DNA from: Aureispira sp.
GTDB taxonomy: Bacteria > Bacteroidota > Bacteroidia > Chitinophagales > Saprospiraceae
Direction: 5' to 3'
DNA length: 33,501 nucleotides
NCBI GenBank assembly: GCA_024222455.1
Contig: JAAEPD010000115.1
Location: 1 to 33,501 of the forward strand
In this document: positions 1 to 9,489 of the stretch, piece by piece
Layout: each line of letters begins with the position of its first letter
Numbering within the stretch: the stretch's first letter is position 1
Translations under genes and position numbers: made by a program
Notes under the pieces: generated by a model
Database searches by the model: none
The model's input: only the letters and a program-made list of their open reading frames with translations
What the model was told of the DNA's origin: nothing

Positions 1-1354
1 AATTTAGAAACCTAAATTTTTTTTTTATTTTCCTATCTATAGTCATACTTGGTAATTGAATACAAACAGGTGTACATTGACTAGTATCTCTCAATTGTTG
101 AGGTTTGAAGGTTGGTAAACATTGCCTTTTGTTGTACGCCTCTATACTTGGATAGATTGTAAATGTATTTGCCAAAGGTGTTTTAATGTACAGTTGACCA
201 TTAGCAGCTACAAAAGCTGTTTGTTCTTGAACTAAAGGAATTACTTTTTTTGGTGTATCTACCTTTTCTATTACAGGACTATTCAATACAGGCTGCTTAA
301 TTTTTGTAGGAATAGTTTGTGTTGGTTGAGGTCTAAACAACCTCCAATCCTGTTTGATAAGGTAATCTGCAAGGTCTAAGCCTTCCAAGCGTTCTTTAGT
401 GCTGGCATTTTTCTCTAAAAGGTCAGATACTACAAATTTAGTATTGGGTAATTTGGCTTGAAACTCTTTTGCTTTTTTGCTCCAATGCTCAAACGCTTTG
501 CCCCCTTTGGATAAGTCAGGAAACAAACAAACGGTTCTACCTTCTAGCACCTTACATTTATCAAAGGTTAAGCTGCTTAGATTATACACCCCCAACCAAA
601 GGAACTGTTGAGTACTACCATTAGGCAGACCAAAATACAATGTTCCATAAATTGCCGTTTTAGGGGCTTCTACTAACGCTATAGGGCTATGAGGGTATTT
701 AGTCAATAAATGCTCTCCAAACAAGCAAGAAACCTTCTTATCGTTCGTTTTGTAGTCTATTAGCCATTGAGGTAAAGGCTTTTTGCTGTTGGTGTATGCT
801 CTTTCTATAGTGGAATGTAAAAAGCTGGTGTTTTTTGTATGATTTGTCTTATCAAATAGTTTTACCTGTATAGCTCTTACATTTTTGTATTGATCTATAA
901 AAGGAAAAGTAATTGCACCTGTTTGATAGCCTTTGCTGACTGTTCCTAAGTAGTAGAGTTCAATTACCTTTTGTATATCCTTAGCGTCAAAAGGATAAGC
1001 CACTCTATTCAATAGATTCTGAATGAATATATTTTGCTCATAGTCTTTTAAGGTTTTCATTAATACCTCTTTGGGTATGTATTTAGGATCTACTTTGGGC
1101 TTTTGTATAATTTGGTAGTTTACCTTATAAACTGTGCTGTTACCCTGCTGTTTTTGCTCACTTGATTGAGCATAACCATCTGTATAGGGGTTGAGATGAT
1201 AAGTACAACTTACTTCTCGATCACAACGTCCATACTGTTCAGGTAATAGTTTATTGTTGTGGCTGTCTATATAGCGTACAAAGCGTTTTTCATTACAGTT
1301 TGGGCAAAGAAATTTCTGCCCCCCGTTTTGAAGGGTATATTGGTATTGCTGCAT
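1..1354 (-). CDS. Primase/toprim-like zinc-ribbon protein (DUF6371 type), partial
   Basis: An open frame runs from ATG at 1354 to the left edge without a stop, at least 451 codons, so the C-terminus is missing. The N-terminus has a zinc-ribbon-like pattern: CPNC at about residues 17-20, then RCDREVSCTYH at about 45-55, as in CHC2-like ribbons of Bacteroidota DUF6371 proteins. Further on are the stretches GRTVCLFPDLSKGG and EGLDLADYL, which resemble the toprim-like half of that family. I infer a role in priming or replication of the element, cytoplasmic, acting with the SF3 helicase encoded just upstream. The start lies about 40 bases from a palindromic repeat array that could control it or act as an origin. 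Family assignment is from remembered motifs; biochemical function is inference. Confidence 0.7.
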   Translation of the reverse strand, partial: MQQYQYTLQNGGQKFLCPNCNEKRFVRYIDSHNNKLLPEQYGRCDREVSCTYHLNPYTDGYAQSSEQKQQGNSTVYKVNYQIIQKPKVDPKYIPKEVLMKTLKDYEQNIFIQNLLNRVAYPFDAKDIQKVIELYYLGTVSKGYQTGAITFPFIDQYKNVRAIQVKLFDKTNHTKNTSFLHSTIERAYTNSKKPLPQWLIDYKTNDKKVSCLFGEHLLTKYPHSPIALVEAPKTAIYGTLYFGLPNGSTQQFLWLGVYNLSSLTFDKCKVLEGRTVCLFPDLSKGGKAFEHWSKKAKEFQAKLPNTKFVVSDLLEKNASTKERLEGLDLADYLIKQDWRLFRPQPTQTIPTKIKQPVLNSPVIEKVDTPKKVIPLVQEQTAFVAANGQLYIKTPLANTFTIYPSIEAYNKRQCLPTFKPQQLRDTSQCTPVCIQLPSMTIDRKIKKKFRFLN

Positions 1355-1395
1355 TGTTATTTTGATTTTTTGGTAAAAAAAAGGTTTATTTCTTG

Positions 1396-1462
1396 CTACA
1401 CTATCTACACTACCTACACCCTTTTTGGGCTAATTGGTGTATATGGTGTAGATAGTGTAGGT
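1396..1462. repeat. Inverted array of 9-bp repeats; candidate replication origin or operator
   Basis: The left half reads CTACACTAT (1396), CTACACTAC (1405), CTACACC (1414). The right half reads GGTGTATAT (1436), GGTGTAGAT (1445), AGTGTAGGT (1454). The outer 15 bases CTACACTATCTACAC (1396-1410) are exactly complementary to 1446-1460, and TACACC (1415-1420) pairs with GGTGTA (1436-1441), giving a large two-stem palindrome with a 15-base loop. It sits between the SF3 helicase stop codon and the start of the primase-like gene. It could be iterons bound by an initiator, an operator, or a strong intergenic hairpin. Confidence 0.75.
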
Positions 1463-3114
1463 TAAAAAACAACTTTTTTTTCTGCATAAACTACCATTCC
1501 TTTATTCTTTCTTGTTACTTGGTAGCCTGCACTTTTTAGGCGTTTACTAAAGGTTCTAGAAGCACAAAGTTGATAACCATTATCAATACTATAGCTTCTA
1601 TACTCTTTATATAATTCTTGCAAAGGTTCAGTAAATTCTAAGGATTTAGTATATCCCATATCTTCCAAAAACATCTTAATAGGGTCAGATTCTAGTTTAT
1701 ATTGCTCCAATGCTTCTTGAGCTGCATTGCATTGTGTAAATCGTTTTGCTTGCAATAATCTAGTTAATCCTTCCAGCACCCAATTAAATACACCTGACAA
1801 TTCCTTATCAATGATTTTGCTATGCAATTGTTTATCCTGTTCCTGTTCGGGTATGGTCACATCAAAGGGAATGATTAAAAAGCGTCTAAAAAAACCATTT
1901 GTATGTTCTACATTTTTAGGTAACTCATTACAATTGAAAATTAGTTTTGCGTATTGTTTCAAAGTAAAGGGTTCACCATAGGGTAAACGTGCTTCAATTG
2001 GTTCACCTGAAGTTAATTGTTTAAATATAGATGATTCCAATTTGCCATTAATTTCACTACCATAGTTTACTAGCTTATTTGCAATTTTAGCCCTATAGTA
2101 GCCATTATCATTGGTAAGGCTGCTCAATGAATAGTTACTTGTATTTTCTTCTCCTAGTAAAGCATTGACTACTTCAAAAAATACAGATTTACCATTTGCC
2201 CCCGTTCCATAAAGTATTAGTGCTTTTTCTTCTTTAACTACATTCCTATTTTTGATAAATACAAAACCTAAAAATTCAGCTAGTACTTGTTGTCGTTCCT
2301 TGTCAGGTAACACCTTATTCAAATAAGCTTCAAAGATTGGTGCTTTTGCTTTAGGATTATATTCAAAAGGCAATTGATAAGTGAGAAAATCTAAACTGTC
2401 AAACGCCCTTAACTTATTGCCTTTTGGAGTTATTTCAAACGTTCCATTTTTTAGATTGATTAGTACCTTATCTTTTGGAATGTCTAATATTGGCAAATGA
2501 GCTTCTGACAAGAATTGTTTAAATAAGTGATCTCTAAATTGATAATACTTTGCTGCAAATTTAGGTACTTGCATCTGTTCGGCTGCTTGTCCTAAAAAAC
2601 GTTGAAAATCATCTTTATCAATTTCTTCCCAAAAGGCAGCATTGTACAAATAATTAAAATTATGTCGCTTGCAAAGCCCCCAATTATTCTGTTTAGCTAA
2701 GTCTAAAATATTATCTATAGCCAATACTGTATAGTGCCTAGTATTGAGCTTTATCTTATTCAATTCTTTATGAATATCCTTTGCTTCATCGCTTTCTTTA
2801 TCAACTGAATTTAGCCTTTTCCTTAATTTCTCTACTTTAGGAAATGCTAAGGCTTCAAAATCTAATGGTTCAAATTGCTCTAATAGCTTTGTCAAAATCT
2901 TACTAGAAGTCATTAGTTCTTCAGGCTTCAATAATTCTTCTATATGACTGTTGATAGTTTCAGGACTATCTAGTTCATCAAACTTAGGGTTTAGTATATC
3001 CTTCATACACTCTTTGTTTTGTGGGCTTTCAGATAATCTAAATTGCAATTCTTCTTGATTTGTAGTATCTTTACCCTGCTTCTTTATAGGGTTATTTTTG
3101 TGGTTATTTCCCAT
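1462..3114 (-). CDS. SF3 helicase, D5/P4-type primase C-terminal domain protein
   Basis: This 550-residue protein has a Walker A motif GTGANGKS at about residues 303-310, followed by a sensor-like FNCNELP near residue 395, the layout of D5_N/phage-plasmid primase P4 C-terminal superfamily 3 helicases. Such proteins form hexameric rings that unwind DNA at the origin of small phages, plasmids and satellites. The N-terminal about 150 residues are charged and show no primase catalytic motif that I recognise; the separate downstream primase-like gene may supply it. The start ATG overlaps the end of the upstream HTH gene by 11 bases, indicating translational coupling. Its stop codon overlaps the last base of a 9-bp repeat array. 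Role in replicating the excised element is inference. Confidence 0.88.
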   Translation of the reverse strand: MGNNHKNNPIKKQGKDTTNQEELQFRLSESPQNKECMKDILNPKFDELDSPETINSHIEELLKPEELMTSSKILTKLLEQFEPLDFEALAFPKVEKLRKRLNSVDKESDEAKDIHKELNKIKLNTRHYTVLAIDNILDLAKQNNWGLCKRHNFNYLYNAAFWEEIDKDDFQRFLGQAAEQMQVPKFAAKYYQFRDHLFKQFLSEAHLPILDIPKDKVLINLKNGTFEITPKGNKLRAFDSLDFLTYQLPFEYNPKAKAPIFEAYLNKVLPDKERQQVLAEFLGFVFIKNRNVVKEEKALILYGTGANGKSVFFEVVNALLGEENTSNYSLSSLTNDNGYYRAKIANKLVNYGSEINGKLESSIFKQLTSGEPIEARLPYGEPFTLKQYAKLIFNCNELPKNVEHTNGFFRRFLIIPFDVTIPEQEQDKQLHSKIIDKELSGVFNWVLEGLTRLLQAKRFTQCNAAQEALEQYKLESDPIKMFLEDMGYTKSLEFTEPLQELYKEYRSYSIDNGYQLCASRTFSKRLKSAGYQVTRKNKGMVVYAEKKVVF

Positions 3115-3460
3115 AATTCAACCCTTTTTTTGTTTCCGCTAAATAGGCTTCTGCTTCTGCCTCCAATTCTGTATTTGTCTTTTTACGCCCTGCTTTCAGG
3201 TATTCCATCAATTCCTCTTTAGAAAAATATAAACGTTTACCTTGCTTCATAACTGGTAGTTCGCCCCTACTTACTTTGCTGTATATGGTAGGTACACTTA
3301 GGATTAGAAATTCTGCTGCTTGTTGAACTGTTAGTAATTCGTCTTTTTCTTCTGTAGATTGGTCTTTTCTTCTGTTGAGCAGTAGTTTTTCTATAGCCTC
3401 TAACTTTTGGCTTAACTGGTGTACTGCTGCTGGTAATTGGTCGAAACTTAATTCCATCAT
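3104..3460 (-). CDS. Excisionase-type helix-turn-helix protein
   Basis: A 118-residue protein. The first about 40 residues look like a short helical/coiled segment (QLSQKLEAIEKLL). Residues about 43-90 (LLTVQQAAEFL, then PTIYSKVSRGELPV, then LYFSKEELMEYL) match the MerR-like/HTH_17 excisionase fold common next to Bacteroidota integrases. It may act as recombination directionality factor or as transcriptional regulator of the helicase operon. Two ATG codons are adjacent at 3460 and 3457. The gene overlaps the helicase by 11 bases and is the first gene of that operon, downstream of a pair of direct repeats that could be its own binding sites. Confidence 0.85.
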   Translation of the reverse strand: MMELSFDQLPAAVHQLSQKLEAIEKLLLNRRKDQSTEEKDELLTVQQAAEFLILSVPTIYSKVSRGELPVMKQGKRLYFSKEELMEYLKAGRKKTNTELEAEAEAYLAETKKGLNYGK

Positions 3461-3564: not shown

Positions 3565-4491
3565 TTATCTTGTTAATGCTTTGTATAAATCCGTTTCTAC
3601 CATTTTACTAAAGTGGCTTAAAACCTGTATAATTTTAAAGTATTCTGTATTACTTTTTAGGGGGTCTTCACTCAATTCTTTATATATGCTCCCTAATGTT
3701 TTAGCTAATTTGGTACGACAACTACTTCTTAGTCTAATATTTGAAGCTGGAATGTTATAAGCTCTTTGTTCAAAAAATGCTGTTAGAATTTCAATGAATG
3801 TTTTATAGCTTTCTTCATTAAAAAAGGCATAGTTCCACCCTTTTACATCCATAGACTTAAACTGTTGAATAATTAACTCTTTCGTTCTTGAGTTATCTTC
3901 TTTTAAATCCTCATTTAATTTTTGGGCAGCAAATGATAATTTTTCCTTTTCTAAGTGCTCTTTTTCTTCAAACTCTAACCGTTTTTTTAAACCCTTGAGC
4001 AATTTTTGTTGTATTGAATTACCCTCTTCTCTACCTGCCTTTAAATCATTTATTTCTAACTCATTTAACAACCTTTCTATAAATTTTATTTTTTCTTTAA
4101 CAGATCCTTCAAGTGTTTCTATAGAATTAAAAATAGTTAGCTCTTTAAAATAAAAACCTACTCTCTTTTTAAACTCAGGGTACTTTCCATATAATATAGA
4201 TTCTATATTCCCCCTAAGTACCATCCATTGATGTTCAATTAATTCATACTGCTTAAACAATGGTATATTTAGATTCTTAAATCTGGTTAGATGGTCTTTT
4301 ATCGTAATTTCTTCCATCGTAGATAAGCCAATTTTAGGCACTAAATCAAAAACAGTATTATACCATCGAATAAAATCTTCTTCATAAAACCGATAAGATT
4401 CTATCTGTTCTTGATTCTTAGACTTAGGGAATAAATCCTTTAGGTCTACTTTAGCAAAGGGCATAGGATAAGAATTAAGTAACCAGTCCAT
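3565..4491 (-). CDS. Element protein of unknown function, largely helical
   Basis: I do not recognise the family. The 308-residue product from ATG 4491 (a TTG at 4518 would add nine residues but overlaps the integrase) has no signal peptide or TM segment. The middle, about residues 160-210, is rich in E and K (KGLKKRLEFEEKEHLEKEKL) and likely coiled coil. The C-terminal part, about 215-300, looks like a compact helical domain (RTKELIIQQFKSMDVKG, then a basic RLRSSCRTKLAKTLG). It starts 13 bases after the integrase stop codon, so it is probably in the same transcript. Position between integrase and excisionase genes suggests an accessory of recombination or regulation, in the position where some Bacteroidota elements carry RteC-like proteins, but no RteC motif was recognised. 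Confidence 0.8.
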   Translation of the reverse strand: MDWLLNSYPMPFAKVDLKDLFPKSKNQEQIESYRFYEEDFIRWYNTVFDLVPKIGLSTMEEITIKDHLTRFKNLNIPLFKQYELIEHQWMVLRGNIESILYGKYPEFKKRVGFYFKELTIFNSIETLEGSVKEKIKFIERLLNELEINDLKAGREEGNSIQQKLLKGLKKRLEFEEKEHLEKEKLSFAAQKLNEDLKEDNSRTKELIIQQFKSMDVKGWNYAFFNEESYKTFIEILTAFFEQRAYNIPASNIRLRSSCRTKLAKTLGSIYKELSEDPLKSNTEYFKIIQVLSHFSKMVETDLYKALTR

Positions 4492-4504
4492 TATCGTATC
4501 ATTT

Positions 4505-5656
4505 TTAATCGTTATCAAAATCTAATTGAATCTTATTCGCTGCTGTACGCTTTGTTGCATCTACTATCTTAGCATACACTAGTGTAGTTTTTAAGTCACG
4601 ATGCCCTAACAGTTTCGATAAGGTATAAATATCTGTACCACTTAATAACTGTAAAACAGCATAAGTATGTCTAAAACAATGAAAGGTTATATCCTTAGTA
4701 ATACCTGCTGCTCCTATCCATTGAAACAGGTGTTTATTGTGGTAAGCAGAATACTTTAAACCCTCAAATACTTTTTGATTGGGCTTACCTTTTGCCCCTA
4801 ATAAGTCATAAGCTTGTTTTGAAATTGGTAAAAACTCTACGCCTTTAGTTTTTTGCTGTTTAAACTTGATCGAGTAACCTTCATCCTTGATATACTCTAA
4901 CTCCCCCCAAACCATTTTTTGAATATCTGAAAATCGTAAACCTGTTAAGGCTGAAAACAAAGCAGCCTGCTTTAATAGAGGATAATTACATTTTGTTTTA
5001 ATTAATTGGTTGAGTTCTTCTTTAGTTAGGTAAGCTCTTATTGTTTCTACTTCTTTTATGGAAGCTATCTTTGCATTCAAATCTGTTTGCAATAAGTTAT
5101 CTCTAAACGCTTGTTTTAGTGCTGCTTTGACTTTATTAAAATAAGAAACTGCTGTATTATGAGCTATTTTTGCTTTTGCACTTCTTCTACTTTTTGCTTT
5201 CAGCAGATAGTCTTTGAAATCTTCAAAAATAGATTCATTCAACTCTGAAAACTTAATACTACCCTTCGTGAAATCTTTAAGGTAATGTAAAGCTGAAGCC
5301 CAATTGCTTTTATTTGAGCCTATGCGCTTATTAGTTAGTTTTTCAAAGTAGCTTATAAAGTCACGCTCTCCAAGCTCTTTTAGTCTTAGTCGTTCCTTTT
5401 CGTATGCTGTATATATTTCAGGCTTATTTAGTTCATTTTCCCTTTTTTGACATATATGTTTAGCTAGTGCTAAATTTTCTTTATTCTTATTTTTCTCAGA
5501 AGTATCTCTAGGCTTTTGATGTATATACAATTTTAAAAATTCCCTCCTAGTAGTTTTGCCTGTTTTAGGGTTTAGTATAGCTGGATAAAAGTCAAGATAC
5601 AGACTTTCACGACCTTTTAAAATTACCTTTTTTCTTAATGTTACTTTGATTCCCAT
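4505..5656 (-). CDS. Tyrosine recombinase / integrase
   Basis: A 383-residue site-specific recombinase. The N-terminus (MGIKVTLRKKV) resembles the arm-type DNA-binding domain of Bacteroidota integrases, then a SAM-like core-binding domain around residues 100-190. The catalytic domain shows ALTGLRFSD (Arg near 240), HCFRHTYAV (H-x-x-R near 325), LLGHRDLKTT (near 350) and the Tyr in LVYAKI near 360, so all usual catalytic residues are present. It would integrate and excise the element by strand exchange at short att cores. The length is normal for the family. The downstream unknown gene follows 13 bases after the stop, and the upstream membrane-protein gene ends 11 bases before its start, so these appear co-transcribed. 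The likely target, the mnmE 3' end, is 2.4 kb away. Confidence 0.95.
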   Translation of the reverse strand: MGIKVTLRKKVILKGRESLYLDFYPAILNPKTGKTTRREFLKLYIHQKPRDTSEKNKNKENLALAKHICQKRENELNKPEIYTAYEKERLRLKELGERDFISYFEKLTNKRIGSNKSNWASALHYLKDFTKGSIKFSELNESIFEDFKDYLLKAKSRRSAKAKIAHNTAVSYFNKVKAALKQAFRDNLLQTDLNAKIASIKEVETIRAYLTKEELNQLIKTKCNYPLLKQAALFSALTGLRFSDIQKMVWGELEYIKDEGYSIKFKQQKTKGVEFLPISKQAYDLLGAKGKPNQKVFEGLKYSAYHNKHLFQWIGAAGITKDITFHCFRHTYAVLQLLSGTDIYTLSKLLGHRDLKTTLVYAKIVDATKRTAANKIQLDFDND

Positions 5657-5667
5657 TGCTTCTATAT

Positions 5668-7356
5668 TTATTTTTTCTTTTTCAATTTTAGTGTTTTACC
5701 TGTTCGCTTTTCCCATGCTTCTATTCTACATTCATTAGTACAATACTTTTGTTTGTGGTGTCTGTACTCATAACTTTTTGAGCAATGCACACAAGTACGT
5801 TGCTTAGGTGGTGGTGTATCGTTATACGATTTTCGTATAGGGCTTTCTTTATTGGTATCTTTAGTATTAAAACCTATAGGTTTGCGGTGGTGCTGTTCAA
5901 AAGGATTTGGGGCGTTACCTTCTATAAAATCTATAATTGCAGTTTTAAGAGTACTTATATTTTCAATAGTTGCCTGTTCTCCTAAATAAGCTTTAATAAC
6001 CTGTTCAGCTTTTAGTTCTATTTGTTGGGCTTCTTCATTCAAATTGGACTTGTTCAACTCCAAGTAAGATTTGAGATATTTTAAGATGATAGGCTCTAAC
6101 TCTTTTAATTCAGTATTGATTGCTGTTGCATCTTTTTGAATTATGGTTGCTTTTTGAGCATCTAGTTCAGGCAGTTCATTATTCAAAAGATAATGCTGCT
6201 CTTTAGTATTGGCAACCTTAAAAATTAATCGTTGCTGTTTAGCTTCAGCTAGATCATATAGTTGAGGTGGGGCGGTGGGTAATGGTGGTGCTGGTGTATT
6301 GATTGCCCATTCTTGTATTCTAGTTCTCAACTTGTAATTGAACTTATCACTAAGCATATTTACAAAATCGGTAGCTATTGACTGTGAAAAATAATATTGG
6401 TTAGGTAAAGCAACCTGCTCTATACCACTACCTTTTTTGTGTATCTGTTCCAATATTACTGAAAAGATAAATACACAAAGACATATAATTGTAAACCATG
6501 CTAAACCATTACCATAATGAGAAGTAGTATTTGCTGCTTTATCAATAGCATTAGTATTTGAAGCTTTGATTGTGTTGGATCCTAATAAATAAAGATTTTC
6601 TATACGTTGTAAATCATTTCTATTAGTAGTTACCAAAGTTTTTAATTCCTTTGCTTGTCCTGCTTCTAGTTGGGCTATCTGTTCAGCTTGTTCTACTTCT
6701 AATGCCTTAATTTTTCGTTGGATAGATTCTTTTCTACTTTGATAACTCTTACCTGTTCTTTTTTCTTTTTGGGTATAGCGGTTGAGGTTGTTTTGATGTG
6801 CTGCAATTTTGGCTTCAAAGCGTTTGTTCTCTGCTTGTATTTGGCTCAAATACCCTGTTGTAATGATTGTACTATCAGTAGAGAATAAAGCATTGAGTTC
6901 AACCTTTTTAGTTTGATATGTCTTATCTATAGCAGTAGTACTTTCTAGTTTTGGGGGTGGACTGGCTATACTTACCAATTCTTTGCTCCCCTGAAAACTC
7001 AATAAAGCAGATACACTTAAAAGCCCAATACAAACAATTACTATAAAAATAGTCATTGCTAAATCAAGCCCTTTGAATCGTTTGTACAAAAATGCTTTGA
7101 TAGTATAAGGGGCAAACTTCCTCAATCCTACTTCTAAAAATAGCGTTCCGATTATTGCACCAACAACAGCCAATAAAACAGCTCTATTGGGGGCAAATTC
7201 GCTAACTCTACTAAGGATTATACTGTAAATAATTCCAATTTCAGTAAGTCCTGAAATCAGTTGAGCAATGATGCCTAATTTGGATAAGGTGGGTACTAAT
7301 GTAGCGTAACGATTAAAAAACGCCTCATTGGTTGGTAAATTGAACTGAATTTTCAT
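5668..7356 (-). CDS. Four-TM protein with long coiled-coil loop and C-terminal zinc ribbon
   Basis: I do not recognise this family. I chose ATG 7356 (562 residues) because the longer frame starts with a TTG at 7410 and adds 18 poorly hydrophobic residues. Hydrophobic segments lie at about 27-50, 58-79, 99-121 and 290-312. The loop between the second and third is basic (RKFAPYTIKAFLYKRFKG) and so likely cytoplasmic, which puts the about 165-residue coiled-coil segment between TM3 and TM4 in the periplasm and the C-terminal half in the cytoplasm. The last about 45 residues contain C-X2-C-X13-C-X3-C (CVHC...YCTNEC) followed by a lysine-rich tail, a zinc ribbon that also occurs in the neighbouring HTH protein. 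It may link element DNA or a partner to the membrane; this is inference. Confidence 0.82.
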   Translation of the reverse strand: MKIQFNLPTNEAFFNRYATLVPTLSKLGIIAQLISGLTEIGIIYSIILSRVSEFAPNRAVLLAVVGAIIGTLFLEVGLRKFAPYTIKAFLYKRFKGLDLAMTIFIVIVCIGLLSVSALLSFQGSKELVSIASPPPKLESTTAIDKTYQTKKVELNALFSTDSTIITTGYLSQIQAENKRFEAKIAAHQNNLNRYTQKEKRTGKSYQSRKESIQRKIKALEVEQAEQIAQLEAGQAKELKTLVTTNRNDLQRIENLYLLGSNTIKASNTNAIDKAANTTSHYGNGLAWFTIICLCVFIFSVILEQIHKKGSGIEQVALPNQYYFSQSIATDFVNMLSDKFNYKLRTRIQEWAINTPAPPLPTAPPQLYDLAEAKQQRLIFKVANTKEQHYLLNNELPELDAQKATIIQKDATAINTELKELEPIILKYLKSYLELNKSNLNEEAQQIELKAEQVIKAYLGEQATIENISTLKTAIIDFIEGNAPNPFEQHHRKPIGFNTKDTNKESPIRKSYNDTPPPKQRTCVHCSKSYEYRHHKQKYCTNECRIEAWEKRTGKTLKLKKKK

Positions 7357-7449
7357 TAATTTTATGACAGTTTGATTTTTCAAATTACCCTGTTCATAGT
7401 TCGTCTGCAAACAAAAGCTATGTTCGGGGTTTTTATTTTTAGCGCATTC

Positions 7450-7803
7450 CTATTGCATAAATAAGCTTTCAATATCTGAACGTCTTAGTATTACACGCCT
7501 TCCAATCTTTCCAGCGTTTAGTTCATTTCGCTTAATGGCTCTCCATATTGTCCAACGACTAACAGACAATAATTCACAAGCTTCTGCAATTGTCAAAAAG
7601 TCTTTAGCCTGTATTTCTTCTATAGATTTAGTTTTGCTCTTTTTGGTTTGCTCATTAGAGGCTTCTATCTTTTCTTTTCGCTTTCTGTCTTTATATGCAC
7701 GTTTGGCGCATACATCTCCACAATATTTTGTTTTAGTTGTTTTGGCTATAAACTCTTTTTGGCAATACTGACAAATACGGTTTACTCTAATATTTGAACT
7801 CAT
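7450..7803 (-). CDS. Zinc-ribbon plus helix-turn-helix DNA-binding protein
   Basis: From ATG 7803 this is 117 residues; a TTG at 7830 would add nine. The N-terminus holds C-X2-C-X13-C-X3-C (CQYC...YCGDVC), followed by a basic linker, and the C-terminus holds an excisionase-type HTH (LTIAEACELLSVS, then IWRAIKRNELNAGKIG, then ILRRSDIESLF). Proteins of this build sit beside Bacteroidota integrases and likely act as regulator or directionality factor. It is the outermost element gene, 246 bases from mnmE, with a good TAnnTTTG promoter upstream, and is the likely head of the operon running through the membrane protein and integrase. Confidence 0.87.
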   Translation of the reverse strand: MSSNIRVNRICQYCQKEFIAKTTKTKYCGDVCAKRAYKDRKRKEKIEASNEQTKKSKTKSIEEIQAKDFLTIAEACELLSVSRWTIWRAIKRNELNAGKIGRRVILRRSDIESLFMQ

Positions 7804-7891
7804 TATATAGTGCTTGTTCTGACTTTGCAATGCTGCAAGTTTCTCATTGTTGCAACTTGTATAAAAAGATAAGGCAAAAAGCCTCTATTTC

Positions 7892-7937
7892 TTGTACCTC
7901 AAGACAAAGATACAAAAAAGGTACAAATAAAAACAAA
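7892..7937 (-). promoter_or_regulatory. Promoter with flanking inverted repeat, upstream of the zinc-ribbon HTH gene
   Basis: On the minus strand TATCTTTG (7912-7905) matches the Bacteroidota -7 consensus TAnnTTTG, and TTTG (7937-7934) lies 21 bases upstream as a -33 element. The -7 box is bracketed by an inverted repeat, TTGTACC (7892-7898) and GGTACAA (7920-7926), a possible operator for autoregulation or recombinase arm site. The predicted 5' leader is about 95 bases. Confidence 0.6.
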
Positions 7938-7980
7938 CTATTCACATAACAACACAAAACAAACAGAAGCAACAGGACAT

Positions 7981-8003
7981 AAAAAAAGCCCTAAAAAAGG
8001 GCT
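7981..8003 (-). terminator. Intrinsic terminator downstream of mnmE
   Basis: AGCCC (7987-7991) pairs with GGGCT (7999-8003) around a 7-base A/T loop. Read on the minus strand, the hairpin is followed by a run of seven T (7987-7981, the first of them pairing with the 5' A), as expected for a rho-independent terminator after mnmE, whose stop codon is 47 bases away. Confidence 0.7.
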
Positions 8004-8049
8004 CTACAGTACTATTATTTATTTTTAATATTTATTTACTTTGCGGCGG

Positions 8050-8067
8050 TTACTTTCCAATACAGAA
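8050..8067 (-). other. Candidate attachment site: last 18 bases of mnmE
   Basis: On the minus strand the mnmE 3' end reads TTCTGTATTGGAAAGTAA, encoding the invariant tail FCIGK plus stop. SGI1 and related islands are known to integrate with a tyrosine recombinase at this very position of mnmE (trmE/thdF), and the bases here are very close to that core as I recall it. A mobile element carrying a tyrosine recombinase lies immediately next to it. The second copy expected at the far end of the element lies outside the window, so the site is unproven. Confidence 0.5.
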
Positions 8068-9489
8068 ATTGGAGAAAATATTACCCAACAGATCATCCGT
8101 AGAAATTTCACCAGTTATTTCTCCTAAATGATGCAGTGCATGACGAATATCCATTGCCAAAAAATCACCTGTTATCCCCATCTGTAAGCCTTCCAAAACC
8201 TTATCTAAAGACTCATTCGATTTTTGCAGAGCTTCATAGTGTCTAAGGTTGGAAACCACTACATCTCCTTGCATTAACTCACCATCCAACACTGCATTAT
8301 ACAAATCCTCTTTTAGACCATCTAAGCCTCTCTTTTCTTTTGCGGTGATTTCTCTATAGTAAAACCCTTTAGTGCCTAAATCTTCAAAAATTTGATCCCA
8401 GCCCTTTTCGCTTGCCTCTTTTTCCATATGGTAACGAACATTATCATGGATACTATAATATTCATCGCACTTATTAGCAATCATTAAAACCTTCATGCCC
8501 TCTTTATAAAGCTTATCTAAGTCTGCTTTAACATCAGGAGCTTTTAGAGTTGTCATATCATAAACATAAACCAAAATTGAAGATTGCGCCACTTTTTCTA
8601 GTGTTTTTTCCACGCCAATAGCCTCTATTTGATCTCCTGCTTCTCTAATACCAGCAGTATCAATTAGCCTAAACTCAACACCTTTTATATTCAAAACCTC
8701 CTCGATGGTATCTCTAGTTGTTCCTGCTATAGCAGATACTATTGCTCGATCTTCATTGAGCAGAGCATTGAGTAAAGTAGATTTACCAGCATTGGGACGA
8801 CCTGCAATCACCGTATTGATACCATTCTTAATAGCATTCCCTAACTGGAAAGAATCTAATAAGCGTTTTAGTAAGGTTTGTATTTTATTCACCAATTCTT
8901 TAAGATCATCTCTATCTGCAAACTCAACATCTTCCTCTCCAAAATCTAGTTCTAACTCAATTAAGCTCGCAAAATGGATTAAATCTTCTCTAAGTTTTTG
9001 AATCTCATCCGAAAAGCCTCCTCGCATTTGCTGCAAGGCTAGTTGATGAGCAGACTCCGAATCTGCAGAGATCAAATCAGCAACAGCTTCTGCCTGAGAA
9101 AGATCCATTTGACCATTTAGAAAAGCACGTAAAGTAAACTCCCCCTCTCTAGCCATTCGAGCACCTTGACGCAAAAACAGCTCAATCAATCGTTGTTGTA
9201 TAAATCGAGAGCCATGACAAGAAACTTCTACTACATTCTCTTTAGTATAGGAGTTGGGTTCTTTAAATAAAGAAACTAGCACTTGGTCTACAATTACATT
9301 TTTTTCGTCTCGGATATATCCTAAATGGATGGTGTGTGTAGCTTGTTCAATGAGTTTTTTGCTCTTAAATAAATTATCAACTATAGTTATTGCATTCTTC
9401 CCAGAAAGGCGAATAACTGCAATAGCACCACTTCCAGCAGGAGTAGCTATAGCAACAATAGTCTCATCGAGATCAAAAGAATTATACAT
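8050..9489 (-). CDS. mnmE: tRNA modification GTPase MnmE
   Basis: MnmE with MnmG installs the aminomethyl-type group on C5 of wobble uridine 34 in several tRNAs, in the cytoplasm, using GTP hydrolysis and a folate cofactor. The 479-residue product has the N-terminal folate-binding domain (IVAIATPAGSGAIAVIRLSG at about 11-30), the GTPase motifs GRPNAGKS (G1, near 232), GTTRDTIEE (G2), DTAG (G3) and NKCDE (G4), and the invariant C-terminus FCIGK with the catalytic Cys. It is complete, so any element insertion at its 3' end has restored the reading frame. It is divergent from the phosphatase gene, with 149 bases between them. Confidence 0.98.
   Translation of the reverse strand: MYNSFDLDETIVAIATPAGSGAIAVIRLSGKNAITIVDNLFKSKKLIEQATHTIHLGYIRDEKNVIVDQVLVSLFKEPNSYTKENVVEVSCHGSRFIQQRLIELFLRQGARMAREGEFTLRAFLNGQMDLSQAEAVADLISADSESAHQLALQQMRGGFSDEIQKLREDLIHFASLIELELDFGEEDVEFADRDDLKELVNKIQTLLKRLLDSFQLGNAIKNGINTVIAGRPNAGKSTLLNALLNEDRAIVSAIAGTTRDTIEEVLNIKGVEFRLIDTAGIREAGDQIEAIGVEKTLEKVAQSSILVYVYDMTTLKAPDVKADLDKLYKEGMKVLMIANKCDEYYSIHDNVRYHMEKEASEKGWDQIFEDLGTKGFYYREITAKEKRGLDGLKEDLYNAVLDGELMQGDVVVSNLRHYEALQKSNESLDKVLEGLQMGITGDFLAMDIRHALHHLGEITGEISTDDLLGNIFSNFCIGK

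Follow-up and report, generated by a model that had tools for sequence, protein, structure and literature searches.

The two facing arrays of 9-bp repeats that lie between an SF3 helicase gene and a DUF6371 gene in Aureispira sp. are very likely an iteron replication origin of the integrative element that carries them, and this origin is probably read by the element's own SF3 helicase. Comparison with other loci favours this function, which a sequence-only reading of the same DNA had proposed: the array lies 3' of the SF3 helicase gene, its 9-bp step recurs among relatives, its core appears to co-diverge with the C-terminal domain of the helicase, and the known origins of homologous replicons are located at the same place. 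Related elements often retain the layout, whereas the site changes together with the domain that probably reads it. In what follows, the window is the whole stretch of DNA that was analysed, 33,501 nucleotides, which is one entire contig.

The array is composed of two opposed sets of three units each (Table 1), as had been claimed from the sequence alone. The repeat unit is best seen as a 6-bp core and a 3-bp spacer, and one of the six units, that at 1437, has one mismatch. The perfect 15-bp outer stem that had also been claimed is present as an inverted repeat, in which 1396-1410 pairs with 1446-1460. The array, which spans 1396-1460, stops one base short of the helicase stop codon at 1462-1464. 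A six-unit detector scored 35/36 on it, a value that none of 100 Markov shuffles of the 143-nt stretch reached. The pattern GTGTAGN3GTGTAG, with at most two mismatches, has seven matches in the window, four of them in the array and the remaining three scattered; 100 shuffles gave a mean of 1.67 and a maximum of 6. A second array with the window-type core was not found elsewhere in the window. A 17/18 triple at 2861 was considered as a second array and rejected, as it lies inside the helicase coding sequence and has a different core.

Table 1 Features of the array and of the element around it, in window positions.
Feature	Position	Strand	Remarks
Outer A-run/T-run motif, left half-site (TAAAAAAAAGGTTTATTTCTTG)	1374..1395	.	
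Left iteron array	1396..1419	+	CTACAC x3 (at 1396, 1405 and 1414), 9-bp step
Central spacer between the arrays	1420..1436	.	gap 17
Right iteron array, inverted	1437..1460	-	GTGTAT at 1437, GTGTAG at 1446 and 1455 (+ strand reading)
Outer A-run/T-run motif, right half-site (GTTAAAAAACAACTTTTTTTTCTGC)	1461..1485	.	overlaps the last helicase codons
Zn_ribbon_16 + DUF6371 protein, possible primase	2..1354	-	runs off the contig end
SF3 (D5-type) helicase, proposed initiator	1462..3114	-	D5_N, DUF5906 and Pox_D5 domains
HTH_17 protein, excisionase/regulator-like	3104..3460	-	
Uncharacterised protein	3565-4518	-	
Tyrosine integrase	4505..5656	-	
Uncharacterised protein, 580 aa	5668-7410	-	
Second HTH_17 protein	7450-7830	-	
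mnmE	8050-9489		marks the chromosome side of the element

On the minus strand, the gene order ends with the SF3 helicase, the array and then the Zn_ribbon_16 + DUF6371 gene. Of the helicase and primase-like flanks that had been claimed, the helicase was borne out, and 'primase-like' is only plausible for the other gene, as it depends on a domain of unknown function (DUF6371). Because the left end of the element lies beyond the contig, no attachment repeat can be demonstrated for it, and no attachment site was found on the contig. A 78% match on contig C81 was rejected as an attachment site, since it looks like a shared terminator-like stretch. At 7830-8050, the element adjoins the 3' end of mnmE (trmE), which is the integration site of SGI1 too. 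The protein encoded at 5668-7410 has a relative (34%) in L080, a tRNA-Ser element of the same family, and otherwise only weak matches, one of which, at its end, is to an HNH endonuclease family.

Helicase homologues were collected in partly overlapping genome searches with E cut-offs of 0.001 or 1e-60. A homologue was present in 33 of 296, 15 of 244, 7 of 295, 2 of 60, 8 of 98 and 1 of 7 genomes, and three of these counts, those from 296, 295 and 60 genomes, include the genome of the window itself. Three more loci came from a genome-contig scan and one from a phage scaffold; scans of viral contigs with two helicases gave no confirmed relative. The first set consists of 38 loci (tblastn, E <1e-60), with the window's own locus included and L046, a copy of the window, left out. 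The later set consists of 16 new loci from 87 and 194 genomes, some of which had been searched earlier.

The 9-bp step recurs at the helicase stop of these loci. In the 250 nt past the stop, 5-mer lag autocorrelation over 23 loci has its peak at lag 9 (70) and its second peak at lag 18 (34), while the other lags from 4 to 30 give 0-20, and 200 shuffles give a mean of 10 and a maximum of 28. In 16 of the 38 first-set loci, a pair of facing 9-bp triples scored above every one of 100 shuffles. The two-triple detector, fixed beforehand, reached 0/100 shuffles in 4 of the 16 later loci and 1/100 in two more; on inspection, single arrays were seen among the later loci, some of which span the stop codon. 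A single-triple measure asks for a 9-bp triple of at least 17/18, the cut-off of the preceding array searches, within -36 to +144 nt of the helicase stop. It was passed by 12/38 first-set loci (window included) and by 10/16 later loci, a count which is not a blind test because the region was picked after inspecting the later sequences. Five sets of shuffled controls gave 0, 0, 0, 0 and 0 for the first set and 0, 0, 0, 0 and 1 for the later loci. Such triples were found in 7 of 915 other windows of the first-set loci and in 8 of 321 of the later loci (15/1236 together), and periods of 7, 8, 10, 11 and 12 gave 0-1/38 and 0/16, respectively. When periods 7-14 were scanned in 14 loci, 18/18 triples were found in L086 and L073 only.

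By either test, an array is located at the helicase stop in 30 of 54 loci (19/38 and 11/16), and neither test was passed there in 24 (19/38 and 5/16). The sequence-only reading had called for a search for 9-bp repeats at the same place in homologous elements, and many related SF3 loci do have them there. It had also named the lack of repeats in relatives with both genes as evidence against its proposal; among 19 relatives with both genes in the stretch retrieved, an array at the helicase stop was detected by one of the two tests in 11, five more have arrays elsewhere (L010, L012, L013, L037 and L039) and three have none that passes (L015, L016 and L047). Of the loci from the genome-contig scan, L003 and L004 have an array and L002 (Legionella sp.) has none. 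The iteron cores across relatives are CTACAC, CTGCAC, CTACAT, GTCACT, TTCACA, CGGCAC and CTGTC-type; the core varies with the lineage and the 9-bp step is constant. The exact CTACAC/GTGTAG pattern was found elsewhere in one viral contig only (L045) and, among 395 genomes of the phylum, in the window's own genome only, a scarcity that is consistent with lineage-specific cores. In addition, L091 has a third AGTGCCG half-site with an AT tract at 4877, 4.3 kb from its compact pair, and L090 has an extra TTCAC array at 6867, at the end of the DUF6371 homology. In L113, inspection by eye of the sequence past the helicase stop shows an AT tract with iterons outside it at either end, an order like that of PICIs; their steps are about 11 and 9.

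A common structure was observed in 44 half-sites, whose array positions were hand-picked and which were oriented from the iterons to the AT tract. TG is found at a fixed phase in 128 of 132 units when the phase is chosen per half-site to favour TG. With one phase per locus, TG reaches 119, GT 106, AG 80 and the other dinucleotides at most 67 under the same optimisation. A unit usually reads (A)(A)[G/A/C]TG, with a part after it that is specific to the lineage. At most 34 nt past the third iteron, an A4..T4 motif is present in 31/44 half-sites, compared with 1.2 in shuffles and 8 for the reverse order.

In a PDB sequence search with the helicase, which gave 28 matches with E<=1, only the SaPI5 primase-helicase (7OLA/7OM0) was significant (E 1.2e-12), and it is also the top fold match of the window helicase. 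The AlphaFold2 model of the helicase has a mean pLDDT of 85.8. Its C-terminal part consists of helices 478-485, 498-512 and 519-528 and of strands 533-536 and 539-542, and by our reading of the model, residues from about 478 to 546 form a predicted winged helix. The final residue is F in 15 of the 38 first-set helicases (window included), a count that is not independent because the loci are related, and in the later L109 and L113; L011, L018, L019, L020, L047, L048, L049 and L113 are among the helicases that end so. Several helicase C-termini (ADEEPF, VQDGPF, GSDAPF and SDEPPF) resemble the SSB tail, and such ends are a possible docking peptide for the host replisome.

The divergence of the iteron core was compared with that of the helicase by partial Mantel tests on 20 of the 23 array-bearing helicases; L004, L035 and L043 are not in the alignment, A1, which left out L002, L004, L016, L035 and L043. 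Core and C-terminal domain (464-545) were correlated given the ATPase domain (r=0.46, 0/2000 permutations as high), and core and ATPase domain given the C-terminal domain were not (r=0.00, p=0.48). Without three near relatives, r was 0.41 (17 helicases, 0/2000), and when five split-class helicases were also removed, it was 0.47 (12 helicases, 0/2000). The later loci alone, represented by 10 of 16 helicases, gave r=0.42 (8/2000) and, for the ATPase domain given the C-terminal domain, -0.19. That test left out L110, L112, L113, L119, L120 and L123, which have no clear array or orientation; the later arrays were given their orientation by hand and their phase from the first-set profile, and the phase is imperfect for L109 and L121. 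Among 11 windows along the helicase, the two C-terminal ones were the highest in all three subsets. Finer windows give a signal at 526-549 (0.39 and 0.32) and at 486-499 (0.32), and the likely recognition helix, residues 516-529, has no co-divergence signal (0.00). From the strand positions in the AlphaFold2 model, the 526-549 signal covers the wing. By these permutation tests, which remove shared ancestry only in part, core divergence tracks the C-terminal domain of the helicase and not its ATPase domain, and the C-terminal winged helix probably binds the iterons.

Particular C-terminal segments are paired with particular cores. GWVV is found with GTG[T/C]AG (L003 and the later L117), RN[V/I]GK with GTGACA/G (L017 and the later L116 and L122), STKNVGKVIH with AAGTGGT (L010 and L039) and GMVVY with GTGTAG (L001 and the later L115). 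The pairing is unclean for GNVVY, which occurs with GTGTA (L040) and with ATGTAG (L009, L034 and L036), and for L041, in which GTGTAG is found with GTVIN.

The surroundings (6-18 kb) of 16 loci without a compact pair were also searched, and recognisable arrays are present in six. Four of these, L069, L071, L079 and L080, have two oppositely oriented arrays that share a core and are separated by 5-8 kb, and L070 and L078 have one array each. L077 and L072 have single triples, of 17/18 and 16/18, upstream of the helicase, and no convincing array was found in the other eight (L073-L076 and L081-L084). Six of nine loci tested have direct repeats at a tRNA gene, 15-55 bp long, namely L069, L071, L079 and L080 as well as two compact loci, L089 and L092, and the elements that such repeats bound are about 7-13 kb long. 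No repeated tRNA piece was found in the other tested loci, which are L095 and L097, each with a tRNA-Arg gene, and the window. Chance repeats of at least 15 bp occur in 10 of 300 unrelated pairs, so the three repeats of 15-17 bp gain weight mainly from their location at tRNA genes. Three split relatives have one array on the inner side of the attachment repeat, at a distance of 142-211 bp, and the second one just past the integrase gene, 1.45-2.4 kb from the attachment repeat; L080 has one array at the helicase end. In three split-class elements with an array beside the attachment site, excision would shorten the distance between the arrays from 5-8 kb to 1.7-2.6 kb across the attachment site.

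Inverted arrays can also be seen as an RNA hairpin between the helicase and DUF6371 genes, acting as an attenuator, a terminator or a stability element, which we consider very unlikely. The transcribed strand of the window does fold strongly (-33.8 kcal/mol, z -7.0), and four other loci also fold well, but the strong fold of the window is what inverted arrays yield without selection for pairing. If pairing were selected, unit i should match the opposite unit i better than unit j. In 14 of the 16 compact loci (the near-duplicates L035 and L036 were left out), the identity between left and right cores is 211/252 (0.84) in register versus 419/504 (0.83) out of register, and that between spacers is 55/126 (0.44) versus 105/252 (0.42). 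The arms thus match in the core with no in-register excess, so that no hairpin is conserved, and a conserved stem of the pRN1 type, with pairing beyond that from the repeated core, is not seen. Covariation of the two arms had been suggested as a check, and the spacers are unmatched in register. Moreover, the best fold of L041 is displaced by one unit, no Rho-independent terminator (a GC stem with a T run directly behind it) is present at 1396-1460, and no Rfam family reached its gathering score. Arrays are kept in L017, L040, L041 and L043, where no DUF6371 homologue was found in the stretch and, in the first three, none follows the array; the arrays of split relatives, kilobases apart, cannot form one hairpin. 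The folded single-strand origin and the attenuator that the sequence-only reading had offered as alternatives are not supported, given the same absence of in-register pairing beyond the repeated core and of a terminator-like site.

The repeats could also be an operator, at which the HTH_17 protein or the helicase would bind the iterons and control transcription. Their location at a gene boundary, the HTH_17 gene that adjoins the helicase gene and the array upstream of the helicase gene in L069, L070, L071 and L079 fit such a role; however, the array is 3' of the helicase in the window and in the compact relatives, a search for sigma-70-type promoters found no such site at the array, and the core tracks the C-terminal domain of the helicase. 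We regard an operator as very unlikely as the explanation of the array, and autoregulation could coexist with origin function. The HTH protein of the window has a homologue in only 3 of 32 other stretches. Arm-type sites of the integrase, or a part of the attachment site, are suggested by the three split relatives, with their one array close inside the attachment repeat and the other next to the integrase gene. This role is extremely unlikely: in the window, two genes of the element enclose the array and the integrase gene is 3 kb away, the second array of those split relatives is 1.45-2.4 kb from the attachment repeat, and L080 has one of its arrays at the end of the helicase.

If the array is an iteron origin, the C-terminal winged helix of the helicase would bind the iterons, and the facing arrays would serve to load two hexamers of the helicase in a head-to-head arrangement. 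The AT tracts on the flanks would then melt, a primase, perhaps the DUF6371 protein, would prime, and the excised circle of the element would replicate. It is conceivable, though doubtful, that these elements share a half-origin of modular build, in which three 9-bp iterons, each with an (A)(A)NTG part in common and a lineage-specific part, go with an A-run/T-run tract, and that the wing of the winged helix is a readable specificity code. Were this so, related elements in one cell would be orthogonal replicons. In the split class, excision would bring the half-origins nearer to each other, so the origin might be complete only in the circle. Whatever the wing does, the layout provides a sequence rule for finding the origins of small tRNA-integrated elements in the phylum of the window, and the natural series of helicase/iteron pairs offers a way to work out and test the DNA-recognition rule of SF3 initiators.

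A literature search, thin on subscription papers, returned no description of an iteron/wing code or of facing triples with a 9-bp step, and one paper that mentions DUF6371. Facing arrays were recognised by eye in five of 18 SF3 loci from phages and plasmids, namely A2, ALQ13.2, Javan602, a Lentilactobacillus plasmid and a Methanoculleus virus, with steps that differ among these five; no arrays were recognised by eye in eight (L051, L052, L056, L057, L060, L061, L063 and L066), and the other five gave no clear picture. Summed over the 18 loci, lag 9 counts 31, below lag 8 (48) and lag 12 (46), and some lag counts are inflated by simple AT repeats. Since these loci vary in their step and do not peak at 9, the 9-bp step is a feature of the closer family of the window. 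In the Lactobacillus phage A2, the annotated rep_origin overlaps and follows the 3' end of the SF3 gene and facing iteron sets are present, as in the window, whereas the step is 12 bp, the core is another one and the arrays are placed around an AT-rich stretch. Satellite phage P4 has two separate iteron sites, ori and crr, and an alpha protein with its own primase domain. The split relatives, with two sites kilobases apart, resemble it, unlike the window, which has one compact pair on its contig.

For pRN1, PMC4234260 places a replication-essential element 3' of a gene for an SF3 and winged-helix protein, like the array described here; according to the same paper, the stem-loop itself is required there and iterons were not found, whereas pairing is not conserved for the window array. 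In SCCmec, the C-terminal domain of Cch2 binds a region of 23 bp that lies 3' of cch2 and contains three AAGTG iterons (PMC7581432). The window likewise has its short iterons right at the 3' end of a D5_N helicase gene, the AAGTG core is also found in the relatives L040, L043 and L080, and by our arithmetic three 5-mers in the 23 bp given in PMC7581432 would fit a 9-bp step. The fragment TACCACTTAAT, as printed there, is the complement of ATTAAGTGGTA, and AAGTGGTA is present in L069 and L079. Unlike in the window, one direct-repeat set is reported to bind, binding is unaffected by deletion of the inverted repeats there, and a facing second iteron set is not described in the accessible part of PMC7581432.

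The origins of SaPIs and PICIs are located at the 3' end of the helicase gene (PMC7581432 and PMC6092414), and the PICI ori, 3' of rep, has two iteron sets (PMC6092414). According to the latter, PICI iterons flank an AT-rich region, while the arrays of the window face each other across 17 bp and have their AT tracts outside. In the window, the primase-like gene follows the origin, whereas the PICI primase precedes rep or is fused to it. In common with SaPIs and PICIs, the window has its array immediately 3' of the gene for the initiator helicase, two iteron sets, an SF3 helicase that is homologous to SaPI5 Rep, and an integrative element as their carrier.
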